Below are positions 3,229-43,770 of a stretch of DNA of 43,900 nt, piece after piece. Under the pieces are notes generated by a model. The model did no database searches. It saw only the letters and a program-made list of their open reading frames with translations, and was not told the origin of the DNA. This stretch comes from Candidatus Gastranaerophilales bacterium (lineage in GTDB: Bacteria; Cyanobacteriota; Vampirovibrionia; Gastranaerophilales; Gastranaerophilaceae). The DNA is taken from assembly GCA_944325815.1 (NCBI GenBank), contig CALVBV010000003.1:1-43900 (forward strand), written 5' to 3'. The first letter of the stretch is position 1, and each line of letters starts with the position of its first letter. Position numbers and translations under genes: made by a program.

Positions 3229-3621
3229 ATGTCAACAGAGAAATTACAACTATACAAATGTGAAGTATGCGGTAACCTTGTTCAAGTCATATTATCCGGA
3301 ACCGGGGAACTTGTCTGCTGCGGTCAGCCGATGAAATTGCTCGATATTCAGCATGATACAAGCGAGATGGGCGAAAAGCACGCCCCTAAGATTGTTTTTA
3401 GAGAAAACGAAAAATGGGTTGAAGTTAAAAATCATCCAATGACAATGGAACATTATATTCAATTTATTGAAGTATACAAAAAAGACAAATCAGAACTTCA
3501 CTTAAAATACCTTAAGCCGAATGACACCGCAGAATTTAATATTACAGGTCTTGATGACGATATTGACGCCATAGAAAATTGCAATATTCATGGTCTGTGG
3601 GGGGAGGATAAACATGATTAG
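3229..3621 (+). CDS. dfx: Desulfoferrodoxin (two-iron superoxide reductase)
   Basis: Cytoplasmic enzyme that reduces superoxide to hydrogen peroxide in anaerobes without making O2. The start at 3229 (MSTEKLQLYKC) follows an AGAAAGGA site at normal spacing; an upstream in-frame ATG at 3202 has no such site. Of 130 residues, the N-terminal desulforedoxin-like domain has C11, C14, C30 and C31, the rubredoxin-type Fe(Cys)4 centre. The catalytic neelaredoxin-like domain has the EKH motif (E49, K50, H51), H69, H75, C118 and H121, the His4-Cys square-pyramidal iron site. All ligands are present, so it should be active. The gene overlaps the ferritin gene by eight bases, pairing superoxide removal with iron storage. 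The natural electron donor (rubredoxin) is not in the window. Confidence 0.95.
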   Translation: MSTEKLQLYKCEVCGNLVQVILSGTGELVCCGQPMKLLDIQHDTSEMGEKHAPKIVFRENEKWVEVKNHPMTMEHYIQFIEVYKKDKSELHLKYLKPNDTAEFNITGLDDDIDAIENCNIHGLWGEDKHD

Positions 3622-4102
3622 TAGTGCTATTAATAATATTATTAATGAACAAATAAATAAAGAGTTTTATTCAGGCTATTTGTATTTATCAATGTCTGCA
3701 CATCTTAGAGAACTTGGATTATTTGGCTTTGCACACTGGACTAAAATGCAGGCCAAAGAAGAAGTCGAGCATGGACTTAAACTCTTTGATTATCTGATTG
3801 AAAGAAACAGTTTTGTAACTTTAAAACAGATTAAAACTCCTGAATTCGAGTTTAATGGTATACTGTCAATTTTTAACCATATTTATGAACATGAAAAAAG
3901 TATAACCGCATCCGTTATGCAGATAGCAAAAGCTGCGGAAGAAGAGTGTGACAGAACAACTCTTTCATTTATTGACTGGTTTATAAATGAACAGATTGAA
4001 GAAGAGCAGAATGTAAAGGATATAATAAAACGTCTGGAACTTTTTGGCGATAACCATGCTTCTCTATTCCTTATGGACAAAGAGTTAGGCGAACGTAACT
4101 AG
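3614..4102 (+). CDS. ftnA: Non-haem bacterial ferritin (FtnA type)
   Basis: Iron-storage protein that forms a 24-subunit shell and oxidises Fe(II) at a di-iron centre. The start at 3614 (MISSAINN) is set by a very strong GGGGGAGG site inside the end of dfx; the ATG at 3590 would lack one. The 162-residue protein keeps every E. coli FtnA metal ligand at the same number: E17, E50, H53, E94, Q127 and E130, plus Y24. The third-iron-site glutamates E126/E129 region is also acidic. It is co-transcribed and probably translationally coupled with superoxide reductase, giving an oxidative-stress operon in which the ferritin would capture iron and consume the peroxide made. A clean terminator follows at 4104. 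Confidence 0.95.
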   Translation: MISSAINNIINEQINKEFYSGYLYLSMSAHLRELGLFGFAHWTKMQAKEEVEHGLKLFDYLIERNSFVTLKQIKTPEFEFNGILSIFNHIYEHEKSITASVMQIAKAAEEECDRTTLSFIDWFINEQIEEEQNVKDIIKRLELFGDNHASLFLMDKELGERN

Positions 4103-4103
4103 T

Positions 4104-4129
4104 AAAAAAGGACTAATTAGTCCTTTTTT
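4104..4129 (+). terminator. Intrinsic terminator of dfx-ftnA
   Basis: Self-complementary AAAAAAGGACTA / TAGTCCTTTTTT arms around a short AT centre, ending in a T run, start two bases after the ferritin stop. The region 4130-4276 holds only AT-rich sequence, presumably the promoter of the next operon. Confidence 0.9.
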
Positions 4130-4276: not shown

Positions 4277-5353
4277 ATGATTAAAGCAGTAAGATTAACA
4301 GATAATACTAATTTTGGCGCGAAATCAGAAGCTAAAAAAGAGAATGATAACGAGTCAAAAATATTGCCTAATACTTTAAGGACGCGTATAGCACAAAAGA
4401 TAGACAAAACCCAGAGTGCGTTTACGGAGTATCCGATAAAAGGCCTGAGAGGAGATGTAAACTCTGATTTTTACGAATTTTTATCGATGGGAATAATTCC
4501 GTATCTTGCAGGCAGTGCAATGTTTATGGCAATGTTTAATCTGGTAACCAAACATCTTAATTTAAAATCCCAAAAACTTGCTGTTAATGGGAAGAAAATG
4601 GCGCTTGGCGTTATTTTATATGGTTTATTCAAAACATTATCAGCCGATTTAGTAACCCGTCCCGTTTACTGGGGAACCGGAGTTGATATAGAACTTCCTT
4701 ATACAAATGTAAGTTATCCGCTTCCTACGCAGCCGGGTAAAGACGCTAATATCTATCCTTTAAGACAGCAGAGAAAAGTTTATGACAGCAGAGAGTTCTT
4801 TAGAAAAGATTTACTCCAAAAGGATCCGGATTACGGCGTAAAATACTACGATAAAATAGCAAAAAAAATAGGTCTGGGAGATGATTTAAATGATTCTGTC
4901 ACAGAAACAACTCCTATAATTCAAAGTATTGTTTCTACGACCAAAACCGCAAAATCTCTTTCAACTTATGCTTGGGCAGGCCTTGGCGTCGGACTCGCGG
5001 CACAGGATGCCTGGATAGATTTATTTGATGCAATATCAAACAGAAAGCGCCATATTGCAAAACCTGGAGAAGGATTTTTTACTAAAATGGGTGCAAGAAT
5101 GAAAAATGCCGGAACTAATTTTGTAGATATTTCAAAAACATTTGGGAAATCTTTTGTAAAATCTTTTAAAACACTCTGGACAGGAGAAAAAGGCACATCC
5201 GGCTTTATGAAACATGCGGGCAAAGCCTGGATGATTTTAACAGCTCTGCTTACAATAGGAAGTACTGCAAATGTTATTTATAAGGCTAGACACATGGGAA
5301 AACTGGCAAACAAAGACCTCATAGATGATAATAAAGAAAGTACGGTGATTTAG
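4277..5353 (+). CDS. Orphan membrane protein with N-terminal NFGAK tag
   Basis: I do not recognise a family. The 358-residue protein starts MIKAVRLTDNTNFGAKSEAK after a GGGG ribosome site at 4267-4270. The Asn-Phe-Gly-Ala-Lys stretch (residues 12-16) resembles the tags of three other proteins in this window. About 50 polar residues follow. Hydrophobic segments then lie around residues 75-95 (IIPYLAGSAMFMAMF), 112-125 (MALGVILYGLFKT), 230-250 (TYAWAGLGVGLAAQ) and 325-340 (WMILTALLTIGSTANVIY), so it is probably an integral or membrane-associated protein. It is the first gene of a three-gene run that ends with a GlgE-like GH13 enzyme; its stop is one base before the next ATG. No signal peptide precedes the tag. 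Confidence 0.8.
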   Translation: MIKAVRLTDNTNFGAKSEAKKENDNESKILPNTLRTRIAQKIDKTQSAFTEYPIKGLRGDVNSDFYEFLSMGIIPYLAGSAMFMAMFNLVTKHLNLKSQKLAVNGKKMALGVILYGLFKTLSADLVTRPVYWGTGVDIELPYTNVSYPLPTQPGKDANIYPLRQQRKVYDSREFFRKDLLQKDPDYGVKYYDKIAKKIGLGDDLNDSVTETTPIIQSIVSTTKTAKSLSTYAWAGLGVGLAAQDAWIDLFDAISNRKRHIAKPGEGFFTKMGARMKNAGTNFVDISKTFGKSFVKSFKTLWTGEKGTSGFMKHAGKAWMILTALLTIGSTANVIYKARHMGKLANKDLIDDNKESTVI

Positions 5354-5354
5354 T

Positions 5355-7988
5355 ATGACATCAATTAATCCGATACAACCCAATACTGATACTACTAAGT
5401 CTCATAGAACACACAGACCCTACCGTGAGGCAGAAGGTCTTATTAAAACCTCTGACAATATAAAACCTCTTCCGGGAGAAGGGCACCTTGTACACGATTC
5501 TTTATTAACAGTTCCAAAATATTTCTTAAAAGACATTGCTTATGACATCAAGGCTATAAAAGACGGATTCAGCGGAAACGCTAATGACCACCAGAGCGGA
5601 AGACTAAATGATGTAGGTCTTAAGCTTGGCGGTATCGGAATTGCTACAATGCTTGCTGCAAGGACAAGCAATCCTATGGCAAGAGTTATGGAATACGCAG
5701 GTCTCGGTGCTTTCCTTGCTACAATGTCACTTTACCCGAAAGTTGCTATTAATACTCCATCAAGATTATATCAGGGCTTTAATATAGGCAAGGAATATAT
5801 TGATGATCAGGGGCGTAAAAAATCTGTATTACAAGACCCGAACTATATTCCGTTTGATTTATACAGAGGCGAATATCCAGGAGAAGATTTAGATGTAATC
5901 GGCGACAGACTCGGTATACCGAGAGGTGTAGAAAACAGGCACGACCTTATAAAAGAGCAGATGAGAAAAATCGGTATCCAGAATAATACATTATGGATGC
6001 TGACAGCCGGAGTTGTTCCGGTATTTACTGCTCTTATCTGCTGCGGTTTAGAAAAAATTATCGGCCCCTGGATAGAAACTGCCAGAAATTCCAGATATAA
6101 TACAAGAATATCTAAAGCACTTCAAAGAACCCAAAATATGAATATTACGACAGAAGAGATCGGAAATACCAAACTGAGCAAAAATGTTTCAAGGATTCTG
6201 TCTAACTATAAAAATCAAGAACTTCCCAAAGCAGAGTTTGATAATCTTGTAAGCTTGTTTACCCGGAACCTTGACGAAAATACCTCGGAAGGTGTTAAAC
6301 AGGATTTGGCAAAAATTCTGGGGATGGAAAAACGCGGTGTAAAATCATTTGTAACAGACGAAAACACTGCAGAAAGTATTATTAATACAGTAAGAAACAG
6401 TCTGCAGAATAGCAATAAGACTTCCCTTGAAAAAGTTTTCATACCATCTCAGGATGAAATTAATAATATTCTTAAAAAGTTTGATTCTAAAGAATTAACA
6501 GAAGAAGAGCTCTTGAAATTCAAATCAGAGCTTAAAGAACTTTTTGATACTAAAATTTCCAAAGAAAACGGGCTTTCTAAAGAATTTTTGAACGGATATA
6601 AAAATAAAATTATTGAAAATATTTCTAAAACAATACAAAAAACGCCGTCAAGCTACGTATCTGAGGCTAACATAAAAGAGATTACTGATTTTGCAAAAAT
6701 TATCAGCGTATTCAAAGAAAATGACAAGATTTTAGATAAATGTAAATCCTTCAAATTTGAACACGCGCCGGAGACGATTATTGCACGTTCATACAGTGCA
6801 AGGTTTGAAAGAGCATTACTTGACGGTCTAGGTATCAAGTATAAAGATTTGAAACTAATGAGAGAATCCGAAAAAGCTACGCAGGAAATTCTTGACAAAA
6901 AGCTTACGGAACTTGCAAACAACCCTGCAAAATATGAAGAAGTTGTCTCTAAGCTCGGTAAAATTATGTCAGATATGGAAGTCAAGCTTAACGGTAAAGC
7001 TGCAGATAAATCCCATATTGTTGATTTAATGAATGCAATAGAAAATAACTACAACAACACTGCTAAACTTCTTGATGAAACAGGCAAAGGCAAATTCTCA
7101 AATACTATTAACCATCTTGTAAAAGAAGATGTTTCAACACTTTCAAATTATGTAAGTTCAAGACAGGAATTATTTGATATTCTTGACGGAGTCAAAGAAA
7201 ATAAATTTGCAGATATAGAAAGCAAATATTGGTCAGAAGAGTTTGGAGAAAAAGGCAGACTTGAGTTTGCAAGAGAAAATGCTAAAGGCGTCGGCTCTTC
7301 TAAAAATTATACCCTTTCAAGAATTGTAGAAAGATATCAGGGTGCAAATAATTCATTCAACAGAATTTTGCACACGATGGATTTATACAAGAGACCGGAA
7401 CCAACTTCTGCTTATGATAAAGAAATTCTTCAAAAAGGTAAAGAGGCAATGCTCAATGCAACATCTTCCGACCATACATTGAAGCTTAATACAATAAATA
7501 ATCCGGACTTCTACAAAGATGTTATGAACACAATCTGGGGTGCAGAAGAAGGCAGCTATCCGCAAAGTACCAAAGGAAGAGGAAGAATTACAGAATCTAC
7601 TAAAAATGCCCTGAAACGTTATGACAGTATAGAAGCCGGAAATATACTGACAAGATTCCAGCAGTATATTAACAGGTTCAGAAACATTATAGGTAACAAT
7701 AATATAGATTTTACAAAACCGGAACATCTTCTTGATACTTCCGCATTAAAGAACTATACAAAAGAATCAAAAACAAGAATGTCAATGTTCAACCTTGTTT
7801 CACAAACTCCGGTAGACTTTGTAAAACAAGCTTCTGACAGAAGATATACAAACCATAAGTGGGCCAGACTTGCCGGAATAATCGGAGGTGTTGTACTCGG
7901 CGGAACAATTCTTGCTCAGTTAGGATTCGGAAAAATAAGAAATCCCCACAATATAAAAAAGCAGGTGAGCGATGATGCAAATAAGTAA
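5355..7988 (+). CDS. Large orphan helical protein with flanking membrane segments
   Basis: 877 residues, family not recognised. The N-terminus is hydrophilic (MTSINPIQPNTDTTK) and lacks the Asn-Phe tag. Hydrophobic stretches occur around residues 93-130 (GGIGIATMLAA; GLGAFLATMSLY), 215-235 (WMLTAGVVPVFTALICC) and 838-865 (LAGIIGGVVLGGTILAQLGF). Between them lies about 550 residues of charged, Lys/Glu/Asn-rich helical sequence without an obvious enzyme motif. The layout (short membrane region, long soluble helical body, C-terminal membrane anchor with a Lys/Arg tail) suggests a scaffold or tether at the inner membrane, but this is inference. It is one base downstream of the preceding orphan and overlaps the following GH13 gene by about 14 bases, so the three products probably work together. 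Confidence 0.78.
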   Translation: MTSINPIQPNTDTTKSHRTHRPYREAEGLIKTSDNIKPLPGEGHLVHDSLLTVPKYFLKDIAYDIKAIKDGFSGNANDHQSGRLNDVGLKLGGIGIATMLAARTSNPMARVMEYAGLGAFLATMSLYPKVAINTPSRLYQGFNIGKEYIDDQGRKKSVLQDPNYIPFDLYRGEYPGEDLDVIGDRLGIPRGVENRHDLIKEQMRKIGIQNNTLWMLTAGVVPVFTALICCGLEKIIGPWIETARNSRYNTRISKALQRTQNMNITTEEIGNTKLSKNVSRILSNYKNQELPKAEFDNLVSLFTRNLDENTSEGVKQDLAKILGMEKRGVKSFVTDENTAESIINTVRNSLQNSNKTSLEKVFIPSQDEINNILKKFDSKELTEEELLKFKSELKELFDTKISKENGLSKEFLNGYKNKIIENISKTIQKTPSSYVSEANIKEITDFAKIISVFKENDKILDKCKSFKFEHAPETIIARSYSARFERALLDGLGIKYKDLKLMRESEKATQEILDKKLTELANNPAKYEEVVSKLGKIMSDMEVKLNGKAADKSHIVDLMNAIENNYNNTAKLLDETGKGKFSNTINHLVKEDVSTLSNYVSSRQELFDILDGVKENKFADIESKYWSEEFGEKGRLEFARENAKGVGSSKNYTLSRIVERYQGANNSFNRILHTMDLYKRPEPTSAYDKEILQKGKEAMLNATSSDHTLKLNTINNPDFYKDVMNTIWGAEEGSYPQSTKGRGRITESTKNALKRYDSIEAGNILTRFQQYINRFRNIIGNNNIDFTKPEHLLDTSALKNYTKESKTRMSMFNLVSQTPVDFVKQASDRRYTNHKWARLAGIIGGVVLGGTILAQLGFGKIRNPHNIKKQVSDDANK

Positions 7989-9759
7989 GATTCAAACAGT
8001 AAATTTCAGAGCGGGAAATTATCCCGTATCAAAAGAAAAGAATGAAAACATACAGAATTACAACAGTGATTCTATCGATAAATATTTGCAGAACATGGCA
8101 CTTATTAATACGCCAAAAGTTCAGAAAATTGAGCTAAATAAAGCCGAGAATAAACCTTATAAAAATAATTTAAGAACAATGATTCGGAACAATGAATCAG
8201 TTATGCTTGCAATAGTTCCGAGAACATTTACCGCTCAGGATTTAAACGGTGATGATATTGTTACGCTAAAGACAGGCGAAAAGAACGGAACATTATTGAG
8301 TGCAATATCAAGACTGGACGAATTAAAAGAAGACGGAATTAATACAATTCACATACTTCCTATACATCCGACAGGTAAGAAAAATGCCCAGGGCACAGCC
8401 GGTTCTATTTATTCTCCGGAGAAATATGTTACAGAGGACGGACATCTTGCAATAGATCCGATGATTGTGGAAAAAGATGATCCCCGCAGTCCGAGTGAAC
8501 AATTCAAAGCATTTATAGATGAATGCCACAAAAGAAATATAAAAGTAATGCTTGATTTACCGAGCTGCGCTTCTGTAGATATGTTTGAAGCAGAACCTGA
8601 ATTAATGGCTTACGGCAGAAACGGTGAAGAAAAAACCCCGCAGGGCTGGACAGATATCAGAATGTTCGAACCCTGGGAAGATGAATCAAACAGAACTCTT
8701 AATCCTAAACTCTTAGAGATGCACAAACAATTTGTTGATGCCTGCATTGATTTGGGAATAGACGGAATCCGTGCGGACGTTGCGAGAGCGAAACCAACAG
8801 AATTTTGGGATATCCTGATTAATTATTCACATCAAAGAGATCCTGAATTTGGCTGGCTTGCTGAAAGCTACACTTATGAATGCGCTTCTCCGATGATTAA
8901 TATGCCTTATGACAGGCCGGAGGACTTGCTTAGAGCAGGATTTGACGAGTACTACGGTCAGTATCATATCTTCCACGATTGGAAAAATGCCGCAGAATTT
9001 AATGACTATATAAAGTTGAATCTTGATTTGTCTCACAGACTTCCGGCTGGAAAAAGTGTTATAGGTTCATTCCTTACACACGATGACAGCTCTTCAATGA
9101 TTCATGGCGGAGAAAATTTCTGCAAAATGACAACTGTTCTGCAAGCTACAATTCCAATGTGCAACCCGTACTTTATTGACGGATTCCAGACCGGAGATTA
9201 TTATGATTACAAATACAGAAATCGGGATAATATTGAAACCTGGACAACAACATTAGATCCGGCAGAACATCGTCAGGTTCCTAAATATGACATGAATGAA
9301 CATCAATACAGGCTGGCCTTGTTTAATCTTTCAAGAAAACCGGGCGGTGATTCTCCCGATATAAGAAGGGTTATGCAGGGAACTCTTGAGATGAGACGCA
9401 ATAACCTTGATGTTTTGGCAGATAAAAACAGCAGTTTTATTGAATTAAATAAACGGGAAGATAAAAACGACCAGATTATAACTTACGCAAGACACAATAA
9501 CGGAAAAACTCTTCTTGTTGTTGCAAATAAAAATCCAAACAGAAATGTTACAGGAATTATTGAAATTCCGGGATTAAAAGCAGACCAGAAACTCGTAAAT
9601 ATGGTGCCGGCATACGGAGAAACCAGCGAGTTTCAGACTGATGCTAATGAACTAAGAGTAAATTTAGCCCCGAATGACGCTTATGTCTTTGAAATTGATA
9701 CTCCAAATATTGAAAAAGACAGAAAAGGTCATGTTTATAAACAAAAAGTAAAGGATTAG
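7975..9759 (+). CDS. GlgE-like GH13 (alpha-amylase superfamily) enzyme with N-terminal NFRAG tag
   Basis: Two ATGs occur in tandem (7972, 7975). The AGGTGA site at 7963-7968 is better spaced for 7975, which also puts Asn-Phe at residues 10-11 like the other tagged proteins (MQISKIQTVNFRAG). The body is a GH13 barrel: INTIHILPIHPTGK resembles the PPIHPIGR region of maltosyltransferase GlgE. The nucleophile is D268 (GIDGIRADVARAK), the acid/base E297 (WLAESYTYE), and H369-D370 (SFLTHDD) is the fourth conserved region. The first region reads VMLDLPSCAS instead of the usual D-x-x-x-N-H, which again is more like GlgE. A beta-sandwich C-terminal domain (ITYARHNNGKTLLVVANK) ends the 594-residue protein. 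It probably acts on alpha-glucan in the cytoplasm, as a glycosyltransferase or hydrolase; substrate is unproven. The GlgE-specific N-terminal domain is absent or very short. Confidence 0.82.
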   Translation: MQISKIQTVNFRAGNYPVSKEKNENIQNYNSDSIDKYLQNMALINTPKVQKIELNKAENKPYKNNLRTMIRNNESVMLAIVPRTFTAQDLNGDDIVTLKTGEKNGTLLSAISRLDELKEDGINTIHILPIHPTGKKNAQGTAGSIYSPEKYVTEDGHLAIDPMIVEKDDPRSPSEQFKAFIDECHKRNIKVMLDLPSCASVDMFEAEPELMAYGRNGEEKTPQGWTDIRMFEPWEDESNRTLNPKLLEMHKQFVDACIDLGIDGIRADVARAKPTEFWDILINYSHQRDPEFGWLAESYTYECASPMINMPYDRPEDLLRAGFDEYYGQYHIFHDWKNAAEFNDYIKLNLDLSHRLPAGKSVIGSFLTHDDSSSMIHGGENFCKMTTVLQATIPMCNPYFIDGFQTGDYYDYKYRNRDNIETWTTTLDPAEHRQVPKYDMNEHQYRLALFNLSRKPGGDSPDIRRVMQGTLEMRRNNLDVLADKNSSFIELNKREDKNDQIITYARHNNGKTLLVVANKNPNRNVTGIIEIPGLKADQKLVNMVPAYGETSEFQTDANELRVNLAPNDAYVFEIDTPNIEKDRKGHVYKQKVKD

Positions 9760-9786: not shown

Positions 9787-9808
9787 AAAGACCGCTTCGG
9801 CGGTCTTT
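9787..9808. terminator. Bidirectional terminator between convergent genes
   Basis: Perfect nine-base stem AAAGACCGC / GCGGTCTTT around a TTCG tetraloop, flanked by A and T runs. It separates the GH13 operon from the acetyltransferase gene on the other strand. Confidence 0.93.
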
Positions 9809-13895: not shown

Positions 13896-15254
13896 ATGAC
13901 ATTTAAAAAATTTTTTATAGTATTGATTTTATTAGTATCACTGCCGGTTCAGGCAAAAGAGGTCGTAAACAAACTTGACTATTTGAATCTCGACTGGTGG
14001 AAAAATTATCATGATGAAATTTTACTCAGCCACCTGCAGACTTTGTATACAAATAACCATGATTTGAAGATTGCGGCGCTTAAAACTAAACAGTCGGAAG
14101 AAAATGTCAGATTAATCGGTGCTAACCAGCTTCCGCAGGTCGGATTTGACGGCTCGTTATCAAGAGTTTTGAGCGGGGCGCAGACAGAGTTTGGCTCGGT
14201 AATAATCCCTGAATACTCTCAAAATGAATTTTTGCTGCCGCTTAGTGCTTCTTATGAAATAGATATATGGGGACAAAATTTCTTAAACAGAAAAAGTGCA
14301 AAGAAACAAAAAGAAATAACAGAACAACAGGAAAGAGCAGCTTATATTTATATAACCTCTGTTTTTACTGCTAATTATTACAATTTGATTAAATCAGAAG
14401 AATTAGAGAAAAATTTAAGAGAAATAATATCTTTGCAGACTGATATTGTAAAGATGACAGAGAAAAAATATAACTGCGGGCTTGCCCCTATTCATGAACT
14501 TTTAAATGAAAAGCAGGCTCTGGTAAAATTTGAACAGGATTTGAATAAGCTTGTTGAAACAAGAAAAATTTTGAATAATGAGCTTGTTGTTTTATTAGGC
14601 CTCAAAACAGACAAAGAGATTGAACATTCTTCATTTAGCGGGATAAGCTGCCCTGAGATTCCGGAATCTTTCTCTACAACAATAATACAATACAGGCCGG
14701 ATTTAATCAGTTCCGAAAATTATGTCAAGAAGACAGGACTTGATGTTAGGGTTGCAAGAAGAGAATTTTTGCCGAAATTTGTTATATACGGTAATCTTGG
14801 GTTTAATGCCTACAGGTGGAATCGAGTTTTTGCAAATGAAACCTTTTTATCTAATATAGGTATTCTGCCAAGCTGGGATATTTTCTCGGGAGGGGCAAAA
14901 CTTGCAAGATACAGGATTAATAAGTATGAATATAAAAAAGCTGTAGAAAGCTATGAAAGAACTGTTCTGACTTCTATACAGGAGGTTAATGATGCTTTGG
15001 TTTCCGCAAAAACAACAAAGGCCAATCTAATTAAATCAAATGACGAGTATGCACTGGAAGAAGAAAAACATCAGCTTGCACAAAGACAATTTACTATAGG
15101 CGATTCTTCAAAATTAGATGAGATGAAGTCAAATATTCATCTTCTTATTGCAAAGCAAAAGGATATCTCCTCTAAAATTGATAACGTAATTGCAACTATA
15201 TCTTTATACAAAGCAGTCGGAGGGATTGATTACACTAAGCCGGAAAATTTATAA
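13896..15254 (+). CDS. Outer-membrane efflux channel, NodT/OprM type
   Basis: The frame is open from 13839, but that would cross the operator and marR; the ATG at 13896 gives MTFKKFFIVLILLVSLPVQAKE, a clean signal peptide cleaved after QA, with AGAAGGA upstream. The mature protein has LDWWKNYHDEILLSHLQTLY, the W-W...D..L..L opening of NodT/OprM channels, then two repeated alpha-barrel/beta-strand halves (YEIDIWGQNFLNRKSA; PSWDIFSGGAKLARYRINKY). No lipobox cysteine is seen, unlike OprM. Length is 452 residues. It is the first gene of the rightward arm, ahead of an RND adaptor and pump, and probably supplies the exit duct. Because EmrAB also needs a channel, it may serve both systems. Confidence 0.92.
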   Translation: MTFKKFFIVLILLVSLPVQAKEVVNKLDYLNLDWWKNYHDEILLSHLQTLYTNNHDLKIAALKTKQSEENVRLIGANQLPQVGFDGSLSRVLSGAQTEFGSVIIPEYSQNEFLLPLSASYEIDIWGQNFLNRKSAKKQKEITEQQERAAYIYITSVFTANYYNLIKSEELEKNLREIISLQTDIVKMTEKKYNCGLAPIHELLNEKQALVKFEQDLNKLVETRKILNNELVVLLGLKTDKEIEHSSFSGISCPEIPESFSTTIIQYRPDLISSENYVKKTGLDVRVARREFLPKFVIYGNLGFNAYRWNRVFANETFLSNIGILPSWDIFSGGAKLARYRINKYEYKKAVESYERTVLTSIQEVNDALVSAKTTKANLIKSNDEYALEEEKHQLAQRQFTIGDSSKLDEMKSNIHLLIAKQKDISSKIDNVIATISLYKAVGGIDYTKPENL

Positions 15255-15346
15255 TTATTCTCCAATTGGCTTCTTGAATAGTTTTAAAGCTTTTGTTATT
15301 TTTGTTATAAAATATTATAAGATTTCATTTCAGATTTGGAGAGACA

Positions 15347-16537
15347 ATGAGAAAAAATATCATAATAATTATACTAATTGCGTTTGCGCTAATTTTAGGC
15401 AGAATGGTTTTATCTAATTTTGACAGAACAAAAACCGCCAAACAGCGTGCTATGGCCAAAACTCCTTCTGTTACGGCAGAAGTCGTCAATACAGAAGAAG
15501 TTACCAGACAATTTACCGCAACAGCAAGAGTTGCATCAAAATACAGAGTCGAGGTGCTGGCCAGAATAAGCGGTTATTTGACTAAAAGTTATTTTAAAGA
15601 GGGTGACTATGTAAAAGCAGGGCAGCTTTTGTTTGAAATAGAACCGCAAGAGTATGAATACGCAGTAGGCAGAGCAAAGGCAAATCTGGATAATGCAAAA
15701 TCACAATACTCTTATTATGAAAAACAACAGGCAAGATATAAACAATTAGTACAGCAAGATTATATTGCCCGCTCGGATTATGATAATATTCTATCGCAGC
15801 GCGACGCTTATAAAGCACAGGTAGAAAGTGCTGAAAGCGCATACAGAGATGCCAATAGAAATTTAGGCTATACAAGAGTTAAATCTCCGGTAGACGGCAG
15901 GGTAGGCATGATTTCCGTAACAGAAGGGAACTATGTTTCAATGAACAGCGGTCCGCTTACCACAATAAACAGCAGTGATCCTATATACATTACATTTCCG
16001 CTGGAATCAAAAGATTACGCAGAACTTGTAAGAATCGATAAATCTGCAAATATCAACAGAGATGTAGAATTTATTTTTAGTTCAGGGGAAAAATATAAAT
16101 ACAAAGGTATCCAGGATTTTCATGATAACAAAATAGATGAATCTACCGGAACAATAACAATGAGGGCTACCTTCCCCAATCCGGATGACCAGCTTATTCA
16201 CGGTGACTTCGGCAAGATTATAATCTACTCAAAAACGAAAGATAAAGCACCCGTTGTTCCTCAAACAGCTACAATGGAGAACCAGGAAGGAAGATATGTT
16301 TATATTTTGGATAAAGACAATCTGCCAAGAATGTCTTATATAAAAACTTCCGGAGAAAAAGACGGTTATTGGATAATAACATCAGGAGTTAAGGCCGGTG
16401 ACAGAATTATAACCAGCGGCCTCCAGAAAGTTATCCCGGGAAACCCCGTTAGAATAGTTCAATCACCAATAAAAGAATCCAAACCTAAGAAAAAAACAAA
16501 TATTTTTTCTAAAATAATAAACAAACTTAAGCAATAA
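15347..16537 (+). CDS. RND-type membrane fusion protein (AcrA/MexA family)
   Basis: Periplasmic adaptor of 396 residues. A GGAGAG site precedes the ATG. The N-terminal hydrophobic helix (NIIIIILIAFALILGRMV) acts as uncleaved anchor or signal; there is no lipobox. VEVLARISGYLTKSYFKEGDYVKAG is the lipoyl half-domain start (key residues R-I-S-G-Y and G-D-x-V), followed by an alpha-hairpin (about residues 100-165), GYTRVKSPVDGRVG and the beta-barrel (ITFPLESKDYAEL). The C-terminal membrane-proximal domain and a Lys-rich tail end it. It lies 92 bases after the NodT-type gene; that gap is AT-rich and could hold an internal promoter. It pairs with the RND pump ten bases downstream. Confidence 0.95.
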   Translation: MRKNIIIIILIAFALILGRMVLSNFDRTKTAKQRAMAKTPSVTAEVVNTEEVTRQFTATARVASKYRVEVLARISGYLTKSYFKEGDYVKAGQLLFEIEPQEYEYAVGRAKANLDNAKSQYSYYEKQQARYKQLVQQDYIARSDYDNILSQRDAYKAQVESAESAYRDANRNLGYTRVKSPVDGRVGMISVTEGNYVSMNSGPLTTINSSDPIYITFPLESKDYAELVRIDKSANINRDVEFIFSSGEKYKYKGIQDFHDNKIDESTGTITMRATFPNPDDQLIHGDFGKIIIYSKTKDKAPVVPQTATMENQEGRYVYILDKDNLPRMSYIKTSGEKDGYWIITSGVKAGDRIITSGLQKVIPGNPVRIVQSPIKESKPKKKTNIFSKIINKLKQ

Positions 16538-21554: not shown

Positions 21555-21872
21555 ATGCAAGTATCAAAAATTACATTAACCAACTTTAAAGGCGGTAAAT
21601 TACCGCAAGCAGTAAAAAAGACTGTAAAACCGGCGGTAGAAGAAATTAAACCGGACTTTAACGTATATGCTTACGGGGTTCCCACAGGAGATATCCCTCT
21701 TGCCAATAAAGCTGAAAAAGCAGCAAAAGAACTTCCCGTCAGCTATTACCCTTATGCAACTCCGATAAAAAAAATTGAAAATAACGCGGAGAATAATGCA
21801 GCTAAAGTTAAAGATATTGCTGATAAAGAAGATAAAATTCACGAATATTTGTCAGCTTCTATGCCGCTTTAA
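21555..21872 (+). CDS. Small orphan protein with N-terminal NFKGG tag (105 residues)
   Basis: The frame is open further upstream, but AAAGGA (21544-21548) sets the start at the ATG at 21555, giving MQVSKITLTNFKGGKLPQAV. This N-terminus aligns without gaps to the GH13 enzyme at 7975 (M-Q-I/V-S-K-I-x-x-V/T-N-F-R/K-A/G-G), although the rest is unrelated. The remaining 90 residues are rich in Lys, Ala, Pro and Tyr (VYAYGVPTGDIPLANKAEK; SYYPYATPIKKIENNAEN), look disordered and contain no catalytic motif. It is therefore almost a bare tag plus linker. A strong terminator follows directly. Function unknown. Confidence 0.75.
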   Translation: MQVSKITLTNFKGGKLPQAVKKTVKPAVEEIKPDFNVYAYGVPTGDIPLANKAEKAAKELPVSYYPYATPIKKIENNAENNAAKVKDIADKEDKIHEYLSASMPL

Positions 21873-41807: not shown

Positions 41808-42779
41808 ATGGCCACTATTACTATTAACACTAACTTAGCGTCATTGACTGCGCAGAGGAATTTGTCAGCTGCAACAACCGGCATGAACACAGCAATGGAG
41901 AGATTGTCAACAGGTTACAGAATTAACTCCGGTGCTGATGATGCGGCAGGTTCAGCTGTATCAACATTGATGGAAGCACAGATTTCTGCTTACGATGTGG
42001 CAGAAGCAAATGCTACTATGGGTTTAACCTTACTTGATACAGAAGAAGGAGTTCTTGATATTGTAGGCGATTACTTACAGCGTATCAGAGACTTGACCCA
42101 GCAGGCTGCTAACGGAACCTATGGTACATCATCATTGGAAGCAATCAGAGCGGAAGTTGAGCAAAGAATGCTTGAAATTAACCGTCTTTGCCAAGTAATT
42201 GATTATAACGGAATACAATTGCTTGACGGAACCAGCAATGCGGCACAAAGCGGCGACGGCGTTAATTTGCAGGTCGGAAACAATGCAGGATTGCCGAACG
42301 TAATAAACCTGGATGCAAGTTTATTTGAATCTGCAATGTGCTCTGTAATATTTTTCTCAGGTTTAGGCATAACTAAATTTGATTTTGCAAGAACAGGAGA
42401 AGAAGTAACCCAGGAATTACAAGATGCTTATGCTGACGCAAAAGCTGCAGTCGGCGCAGACGGCATAACTGCTATTTGTCAGGCAGTATACACAAATGAT
42501 ACTACTGCACGTCAATTTATATATTTCATAGATGACGCAATTGAAAATATATCAGACAGAAGAACTTTAATCGGTGCATATATGAACCGTGTAGAATCAG
42601 CTGTTGATGCTTTGAGTGTACAGAAAGAAAACATTGTATCAGCAAATTCATCTATTAAGGATGCTGATGTTGCGACAGAAGCTTCTAATTATATCAAATA
42701 CCAGATTCTTCAGCAATCTGCAGCAACCTTGCTATCTACAGCTAACCAAACACCAAGTATAGCTTTAAACTTAGTATAA
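41808..42779 (+). CDS. fliC: Flagellin, copy 1
   Basis: 323-residue filament protein exported by the flagellar type III apparatus. The N-terminal D0/D1 part is typical (MATITINTNLASLTAQRNLS; ERLSTGYRINSGADDAAGSA; LQRIRDLTQQAANGTYGT), as is the C-terminal part (GAYMNRVESAVDALSVQKEN; SNYIKYQILQQSAATLLSTA; NQTPSIALNLV). The variable region between about 145 and 235 is short, so the filament has only a small outer domain. Unusually it has three cysteines (C128, C178, C224), all kept in copy 2. The TLR5-type stretch L-Q-R-x-R has D where Salmonella has E. AAGGAG precedes the ATG after a long structured leader. Confidence 0.97.
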   Translation: MATITINTNLASLTAQRNLSAATTGMNTAMERLSTGYRINSGADDAAGSAVSTLMEAQISAYDVAEANATMGLTLLDTEEGVLDIVGDYLQRIRDLTQQAANGTYGTSSLEAIRAEVEQRMLEINRLCQVIDYNGIQLLDGTSNAAQSGDGVNLQVGNNAGLPNVINLDASLFESAMCSVIFFSGLGITKFDFARTGEEVTQELQDAYADAKAAVGADGITAICQAVYTNDTTARQFIYFIDDAIENISDRRTLIGAYMNRVESAVDALSVQKENIVSANSSIKDADVATEASNYIKYQILQQSAATLLSTANQTPSIALNLV

Positions 42780-42798: not shown

Positions 42799-43770
42799 AT
42801 GGCTACAATCACAATCAATACGAACTTAGCCTCTCTGACCGCTCAACGTAATTTATCAGCAGCAACAGACGGTATGAACACTGCAATGGAAAGATTGTCG
42901 ACTGGATATAAAATCAATTCCGGCGCTGATGACGCTGCAGGCTCAGCTGTATCAACATTGATGGAAGCACAGATTTCTGCTTATGATGTTGCTGATTCAA
43001 ACGCACAAATGGGTATTTCATTACTTGATACTCAGGAAGGTGTTTTGGATATTATCGGTGATTACCTTCAGCGTATCAGAGATTTGACCCAGCAGGCTGC
43101 TAACGGGACTTACGGCACATCATCTTTAGAAGCCATAAGATCAGAAGTTGAGCAGAGGATGCTTGAAATTAACCGTCTTTGCCAGGTAGTTGATTATAAC
43201 GGTATTCAACTGCTTGACGGGACAAGCAATGCGGTACAAAGCGGCGACGGAGTAAATCTGCAAGTCGGTAATAATGCCGGTGCACCTAATGTAATCAATT
43301 TAGATTCTTCGTTATTTGCATCTGCAATGTGTACGACAATATTCTTCTCAGGGCTTAACATCAATCAATTTGATTTCACACGTTCTGCAGATGAGGATAC
43401 ACAGAAACTTCAAGATGCTTACACAGAAGCAAAAGCTGCTGTCGGCGCTGACGGCATAACTGCTATGTGCCAGGCTATCTATACTAATGACACAACTGCG
43501 CGTCAGTTTATATATTTTATAGATGATGCAATTGAAAACATATCAGATAGAAGAACACTTATTGGTGCCTACATGAACCGTGTAGAATCAGCTGTTGATG
43601 CATTGAGCGTTCAAAAGGAGAATATTGTATCATCTAATTCATCGATAAAAGATGCGGATGTTGCAACAGAGGCGTCGAATTATATTAAATACCAAATTTT
43701 ACAGCAGTCAGCAGCAACCCTGCTTTCTACTGCAAACCAGACGCCGAGTATAGCTTTAAACTTAGTGTAA
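42799..43770 (+). CDS. fliC: Flagellin, copy 2
   Basis: 323 residues, same length as copy 1 and about 90% alike by eye, with no indel. The N- and C-terminal domains are almost identical, and changes cluster at residues 66-80 and 162-205. The DNA differs at many third codon positions, so the duplication is not recent and the protein is held by selection. The cysteines C128, C178 and C224 are conserved. AAAGGAG lies eight bases before the ATG, 19 bases after copy 1, with no terminator between them, so both are probably on one mRNA. Sugar modification by the Maf-type protein at the window's left end is plausible. Confidence 0.97.
   Translation: MATITINTNLASLTAQRNLSAATDGMNTAMERLSTGYKINSGADDAAGSAVSTLMEAQISAYDVADSNAQMGISLLDTQEGVLDIIGDYLQRIRDLTQQAANGTYGTSSLEAIRSEVEQRMLEINRLCQVVDYNGIQLLDGTSNAVQSGDGVNLQVGNNAGAPNVINLDSSLFASAMCTTIFFSGLNINQFDFTRSADEDTQKLQDAYTEAKAAVGADGITAMCQAIYTNDTTARQFIYFIDDAIENISDRRTLIGAYMNRVESAVDALSVQKENIVSSNSSIKDADVATEASNYIKYQILQQSAATLLSTANQTPSIALNLV

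Follow-up and report, generated by a model that had tools for sequence, protein, structure and literature searches.

Does the juxtaposition of two membrane proteins of unassigned family with a GH13 enzyme mark a working unit, and what might such a unit do? The question arises in a 1.84-Mb genome of the Gastranaerophilales (class Vampirovibrionia), gut-dwelling, non-photosynthetic kin of cyanobacteria. The sequence analysed is from contig C3, and by the window we mean the whole 43,900-nucleotide stretch examined. The ORF list gives three genes at 4277-5353, 5355-7988 and 7972-9759, which encode P0001, a 358-aa membrane protein with four predicted hydrophobic segments, P0002, an 877-aa helical membrane protein, and P0003, a 595-aa GH13 enzyme without a signal peptide, respectively; these genes, the features mapped within them and the two hairpins described below are on the + strand. 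A single base separates P0001 from P0002, while P0003 starts at an ATGATG (7972/7975), preceded by a Shine-Dalgarno-like GGTGAG, and shares 17 or 14 bases with the 3' end of the P0002 gene. Terminator-like hairpins lie upstream, between a ferritin-like gene and the operon (4104..4129, AAAAAAGGACTAATTAGTCCTTTTTT), and downstream, where the hairpin is bidirectional (9787..9808, AAAGACCGCTTCGGCGGTCTTT), and the three-gene unit is therefore bounded at both ends. This agrees with the operon proposed in the original prediction, based on spacers of 1 and about -14 bases and the terminator at 9787, with the second hairpin now closing the 5' side. Genes that by sequence appearance are desulfoferrodoxin-like and ferritin-like (3229-4102) are found immediately 5' of the operon, beyond the upstream terminator.

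Conservation of the operon in relatives had been set beforehand as its test, and we surveyed 60 genomes of the family from 41 genera, with homologous loci lying in assemblies named mostly as Candidatus Gastranaerophilales. The P0001 and P0002 genes were adjacent in 54 of these and were both missing from the same six, and an operon-type GH13 gene came next after P0002 in 50 of the 54 pair-bearing genomes; in the remaining four (G004, G030, G042 and G055) the contig stops at or just past P0002. The predicted co-conservation was thus upheld by joint presence and joint absence alike. All three operon genes are missing from the six pair-less genomes, where a shorter GH13 paralogue is the only one, and since these genomes span four genera, and g23 among them also includes an operon-bearing member, the operon has probably been lost more than once, each time with its three genes together. 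Furthermore, the order P0001-P0002-GH13 was the same in all ~90 loci that span the three genes, which indicates that the arrangement is not due to chance. The flanking genes, by comparison, are not conserved, and we rejected them as additional core members as even the commonest neighbour occurs in only 9 of 40 loci. We also observed a gene of undecaprenyl-diphosphatase-like appearance upstream on the same strand, at a median distance of 82 bases, in 9/40 loci (L104, L106, L109, L133, L134, L135, L138 and two more).

Comparison of the two membrane proteins using HHalign revealed a shared module (probability 94%, E 1.2e-7), formed of residues 23-252 in P0001 (4343..5032) and residues 39-242 in P0002 (5469..6080), and they are therefore paralogues, a relationship that was not foreseen in the original prediction. 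In P0002 the module contains two to three hydrophobic segments and a loop with near-invariant residues D150, K156, D161 and D168. About four hydrophobic segments are predicted in each protein, several of them weak (family Kyte-Doolittle means 1.0-1.4), and the last of those in P0002 is at its C-terminus (residues 840-858; 7872..7928). AlphaFold models of P0001 and P0002 (pLDDT 82.5 and 87.6, respectively) are almost wholly helical, and the earlier description of P0002 as a membrane-anchored helical protein therefore stands as a prediction. Neither protein gave a match above cut-off in Pfam, NCBIfam, PHROGs or PADLOC, sequence comparison with solved chains returned weak helical matches only, and Foldseek gave no match at E <= 0.001. 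Using VIA-align, helical stretches of P0001 matched BAR-domain or long-helix proteins with Z up to 6.0, which we read as generic helical similarity. We found no description of a P0001-P0002-GH13 system in the literature. With hydrophobic segments predicted in both and no family or clear fold match for either, the proteins are indeed the membrane orphans they had been taken for, and, as no described family was found for it, the pair defines its own here.

A phylum-wide search with a P0002 profile identified homologues in f2, a second family within the order, and in f4 and f10, which lie elsewhere in the class; all three have the gene order P0001-P0002-GH13 unchanged. Sampled members of other families of the class had no homologue, bar one marginal match in f3 (E 2.5e-4), and in photosynthetic cyanobacteria we detected only three weak helical matches (E about 1e-4), which were read as chance. 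In three f4 genomes P0002 and the GH13 enzyme are encoded as a single ORF of 1030 (L152), 986 (L154) and 1082 aa (L155), in which the P0002 module is followed by its C-terminal hydrophobic segment and then by the entire GH13 domain; the point of fusion thus comes after the segment that corresponds to residues 840-858 of P0002. Phylogenetic analysis of the enzymes supported GH13 orthology in the distant lineage (100/100) and placed the three fused copies in one clade (99/97), which points to one fusion event or more, and not necessarily to three. No other observation argues as strongly as this fusion for a joint function of P0002 and the enzyme. In f2 we also noted tandem, near-alike genes for proteins of 629 and 627 aa lying 3' of the operon (L162:12564-14453 and 14600-16483).

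P0003 matched the Pfam alpha-amylase family PF00128 with 25.3 bits against a cut-off of 22, and the GH13 triad of Asp/Glu/Asp at the ends of strands 4, 5 and 7 is present as the nucleophile D269 (8776..8778), the acid/base E298 (8863..8865) and the third catalytic residue D371 (9082..9084), each found in 65/65 operon orthologues, in keeping with the GH13 assignment of the third protein. The calcium-type loop (D-x-N-G-x..I..E) is mostly retained in these orthologues, while region I of P0003 reads DLPSCAS as opposed to the usual D-x-x-x-N-H. In a profile search of solved relatives, the best match was the GH13 maltodextrin glycosyltransferase (maltosyltransferase, PDB 1gju/1gjw) from Thermotoga maritima (E 1.3e-24), with three collinear stretches that cover the barrel and C-terminal domain, followed by 4gkl, 3dhu and GlgE; with a single-sequence search 4gkl ranked first. 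The T. maritima enzyme has DFIPRTAA in region I and, like P0003, is non-canonical with no N-H, although it is a distant relative and the match includes no membrane partner. The alpha-amylases 4gkl and 3dhu resemble P0003 in the barrel (profile E 1.5e-23 and 1e-18, respectively) and have the GTxGSxY segment and region II in common with it, but they keep the N-H of region I where P0003 has S-C. P0003 had been described as GlgE-like, and its likeness to GlgE, a maltose-1-phosphate maltosyltransferase, extends over ~200 residues of the GH13 barrel (E 1e-14). However, PF21702, which models the C-terminal domain of GlgE, scored 16.8 bits, below the cut-off of 27, and the N/S domain specific to GlgE is missing, with no Pfam match N-terminal to a barrel that starts at about residue 75-81 of 595. 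Unlike GlgE, P0003 has putative membrane partners. We rejected GlgE membership on domain content, and, with the T. maritima transferase a nearer solved relative, consider the earlier description overstated. Searches of PADLOC and phage-protein libraries gave nothing useful, with a weak GlgB-type GH13 match (PADLOC) as the one hit. Because the best profile match is the T. maritima enzyme, region I is non-canonical and the GlgE N/S domain is missing, our preferred, if unproven, reading is that P0003 would be a transferase of short glucan units more likely than a simple amylase, a reading based on distant similarity and one motif.

We also examined what else is encoded around the operon and its relatives. 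A large GH13-related gene (1211-1479 aa) lies directly 3' on the same strand in 8/40 family loci (L113, L114, L115, L119, L122, L124, L125 and L126), from several genera, with one copy incomplete at the edge of the sequence retrieved, and a relative is found divergently upstream in seven f4 loci (L152, L154, L155, L156, L157, L158 and L161); in the genome studied here the large GH13 gene is away from the operon, on contig C56 (L183:3513-8027). Members of this large family (about 1200-1500 aa) have an xFxG motif near the N-terminus in those examined. In several f4 loci an MFS transporter adjoins the large GH13 gene, and the two transporters that we searched were SLC45/sucrose symporter-like (TIGR01301 E 1e-42 and 6e-30; SUC1 8bb6). 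The proximity of the large GH13 and an SLC45-type transporter indicates that the setting is alpha-glucan metabolism. GlgA, short phosphorylase and GH77 enzymes are present in family genomes with and without the operon, which suggests that the operon supplements glycogen metabolism and is not needed for its core, a point that weighs against the reading proposed below.

Taken together, we think it on balance likely that the operon encodes a clade-specific, membrane-bound alpha-glucan-processing complex, confined to part of the Vampirovibrionia, in which P0003 is transferase-like and cytoplasmic. P0001 and P0002 go back to one ancestral membrane module and are likely to pair with each other in the cytoplasmic membrane, and, judging by the fusion, the docking site of P0003 would be the membrane segment at the C-terminus of P0002. 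Its substrate there may be an alpha-1,4-glucan or maltodextrin, with transfer of short glucan units a likelier reaction than simple amylase action. In this family P0003 most likely sits on the cytoplasmic face, where it would use glycogen inside the cell or maltodextrin that has been taken up; a paralogue with a signal peptide would work separately, outside the cytoplasm. An enzyme-scaffold system for alpha-glucan at the membrane had been proposed originally; of this, the membrane-bound enzyme is retained owing to the fusion, and alpha-glucan owing to the GH13 and SLC45-type neighbours, while the GlgE identity and the role given to an N-terminal tag are not.

The side of the membrane on which P0003 works is where an alternative is best placed to compete. 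This holds that the enzyme is periplasmic, with P0001 and P0002 anchoring and translocating it, and that it processes incoming starch fragments beside the uptake machinery, a possibility that we consider unlikely but by no means negligible. The nearest paralogous clade is indeed exported, which had not been anticipated in the original prediction. This GH13 paralogue (contig C11, L175:13165-14691, - strand, in the genome studied here; relatives in L186-L205) was detected in nearly all family genomes searched, including those without the operon, the exceptions being G012 and the incomplete G031. It is 43% identical to P0003 and shares with it the barrel and a region I of the DLPxC type, but is shorter, lies away from P0001/P0002 and belongs to a separate clade, with the split from the operon GH13 enzymes of all lineages having 100/100 support. 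A signal peptide is present in all 21 copies read, whereas none was found in any operon enzyme, which stands against a periplasmic P0003. Cysteine content likewise differs, with the family operon enzymes at 1.12% and the exported paralogue at about half this (0.58%). Of the own genome 427 kb was sampled. Cytosolic-like proteins of this genome have 1.44% cysteine and exported-like proteins 0.75%; the operon enzyme is nearer to the cytosolic-like level and the cytoplasm is therefore favoured. The middle region of P0002 contains 0.29% cysteine, which would fit an extracytoplasmic site, but its helical repeats may bias this figure.

Evidence from the distant lineage is more favourable to a periplasmic enzyme. 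In the Gastranaerophilales family, the positive charges that flank the last P0002 hydrophobic segment are evenly spread and favour neither side, but in f4 and f10 more positive charge lies N-terminal of this segment, which mildly favours an extracytoplasmic C-terminus, and as this is the site of the GH13 fusion the fused enzyme would then be outside. The SLC45/sucrose-type transporter that adjoins the locus in this lineage would also suit processing beside uptake. The low cysteine content of the operon enzymes there (0.52%) is uninformative, however, as the background of the lineage is itself low (0.62%). For the Gastranaerophilales family, signal peptide and cysteine data lead us to place P0003 probably on the cytoplasmic face.

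Further possibilities concern the role of the membrane pair. One is that the paralogous pair serves as a conduit or vectorial platform, with the GH13 enzyme coupling glucan transfer to membrane transit in a system limited to non-photosynthetic relatives of cyanobacteria, which seems to us quite improbable. A synthase-like alpha-glucan exporter or importer, with P0001 and P0002 as the conduit and a glucan that is lengthened or shortened in transit by the GH13 transferase, we hold to be very improbable: two paralogous multi-segment proteins with near-invariant polar loop residues, and an enzyme fused straight after the last membrane segment, would be consistent with it, but neither protein resembles a transporter or synthase family, and about four weak hydrophobic segments per protein argue against a channel of this kind. 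Finally, that the genes are merely linked, being co-transcribed but with separate functions and the membrane pair serving, for example, in envelope or membrane organisation, is scarcely probable, because although core glycogen genes are elsewhere in the genome and no domain can be recognised in the membrane pair, the three genes are lost together, are kept over separate lineages while their flanks change, and are in part fused.

Two large uncharacterised membrane families, retained by most genomes of a common gut lineage known mainly from metagenomes, now gain a testable alpha-glucan context, and the natural P0002-GH13 fusions are a ready construct for structural work. If the proposal is correct, the membrane would be a site where some bacteria arrange their alpha-glucan enzymes, with consequences for our view of starch or glycogen use by Gastranaerophilales in the gut.

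We finally assessed the N-terminal tag that had been proposed to organise the system, by surveying the N-terminal 40 residues of proteins encoded in the window and in loci L099-L138 and L166-L205. An F-x-G/A motif was enriched approximately twofold at residues 11-20, with 59 matches in 986 family proteins compared with ~30 per ten-residue block elsewhere, the usual tagged N-termini being MNINPINSKSINFGAK or MKVNNNYSKIHFTGYK, and it occurs in the distant lineage too (RFSG, RFGA). The tag is thus real as an N-terminal feature, and possibly clade-wide. As predicted, two of the three operon proteins carry it, as NFGA in P0001 (residues 12-15; 4310..4321) and NFRA in P0003 (residues 11-14; 8002..8013), with none in P0002. 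However, the former is poorly conserved and the latter absent from most orthologues, with the strict form in 12/71 P0001, 23/65 P0003 and 0/84 non-redundant P0002 sequences. Given its absence from P0002 and patchy occurrence in the others, we rejected the tag as a conserved organiser, and it is unlikely to hold a P0001-P0002-P0003 complex together. Elsewhere in the window, two near-alike flagellin-like genes are arranged in tandem (41808-42779 and 42799-43770; 323 aa each), and a 105-aa protein with no Pfam family (21555-21872) bears a clear tag (MQVSKITLTNFKGG).
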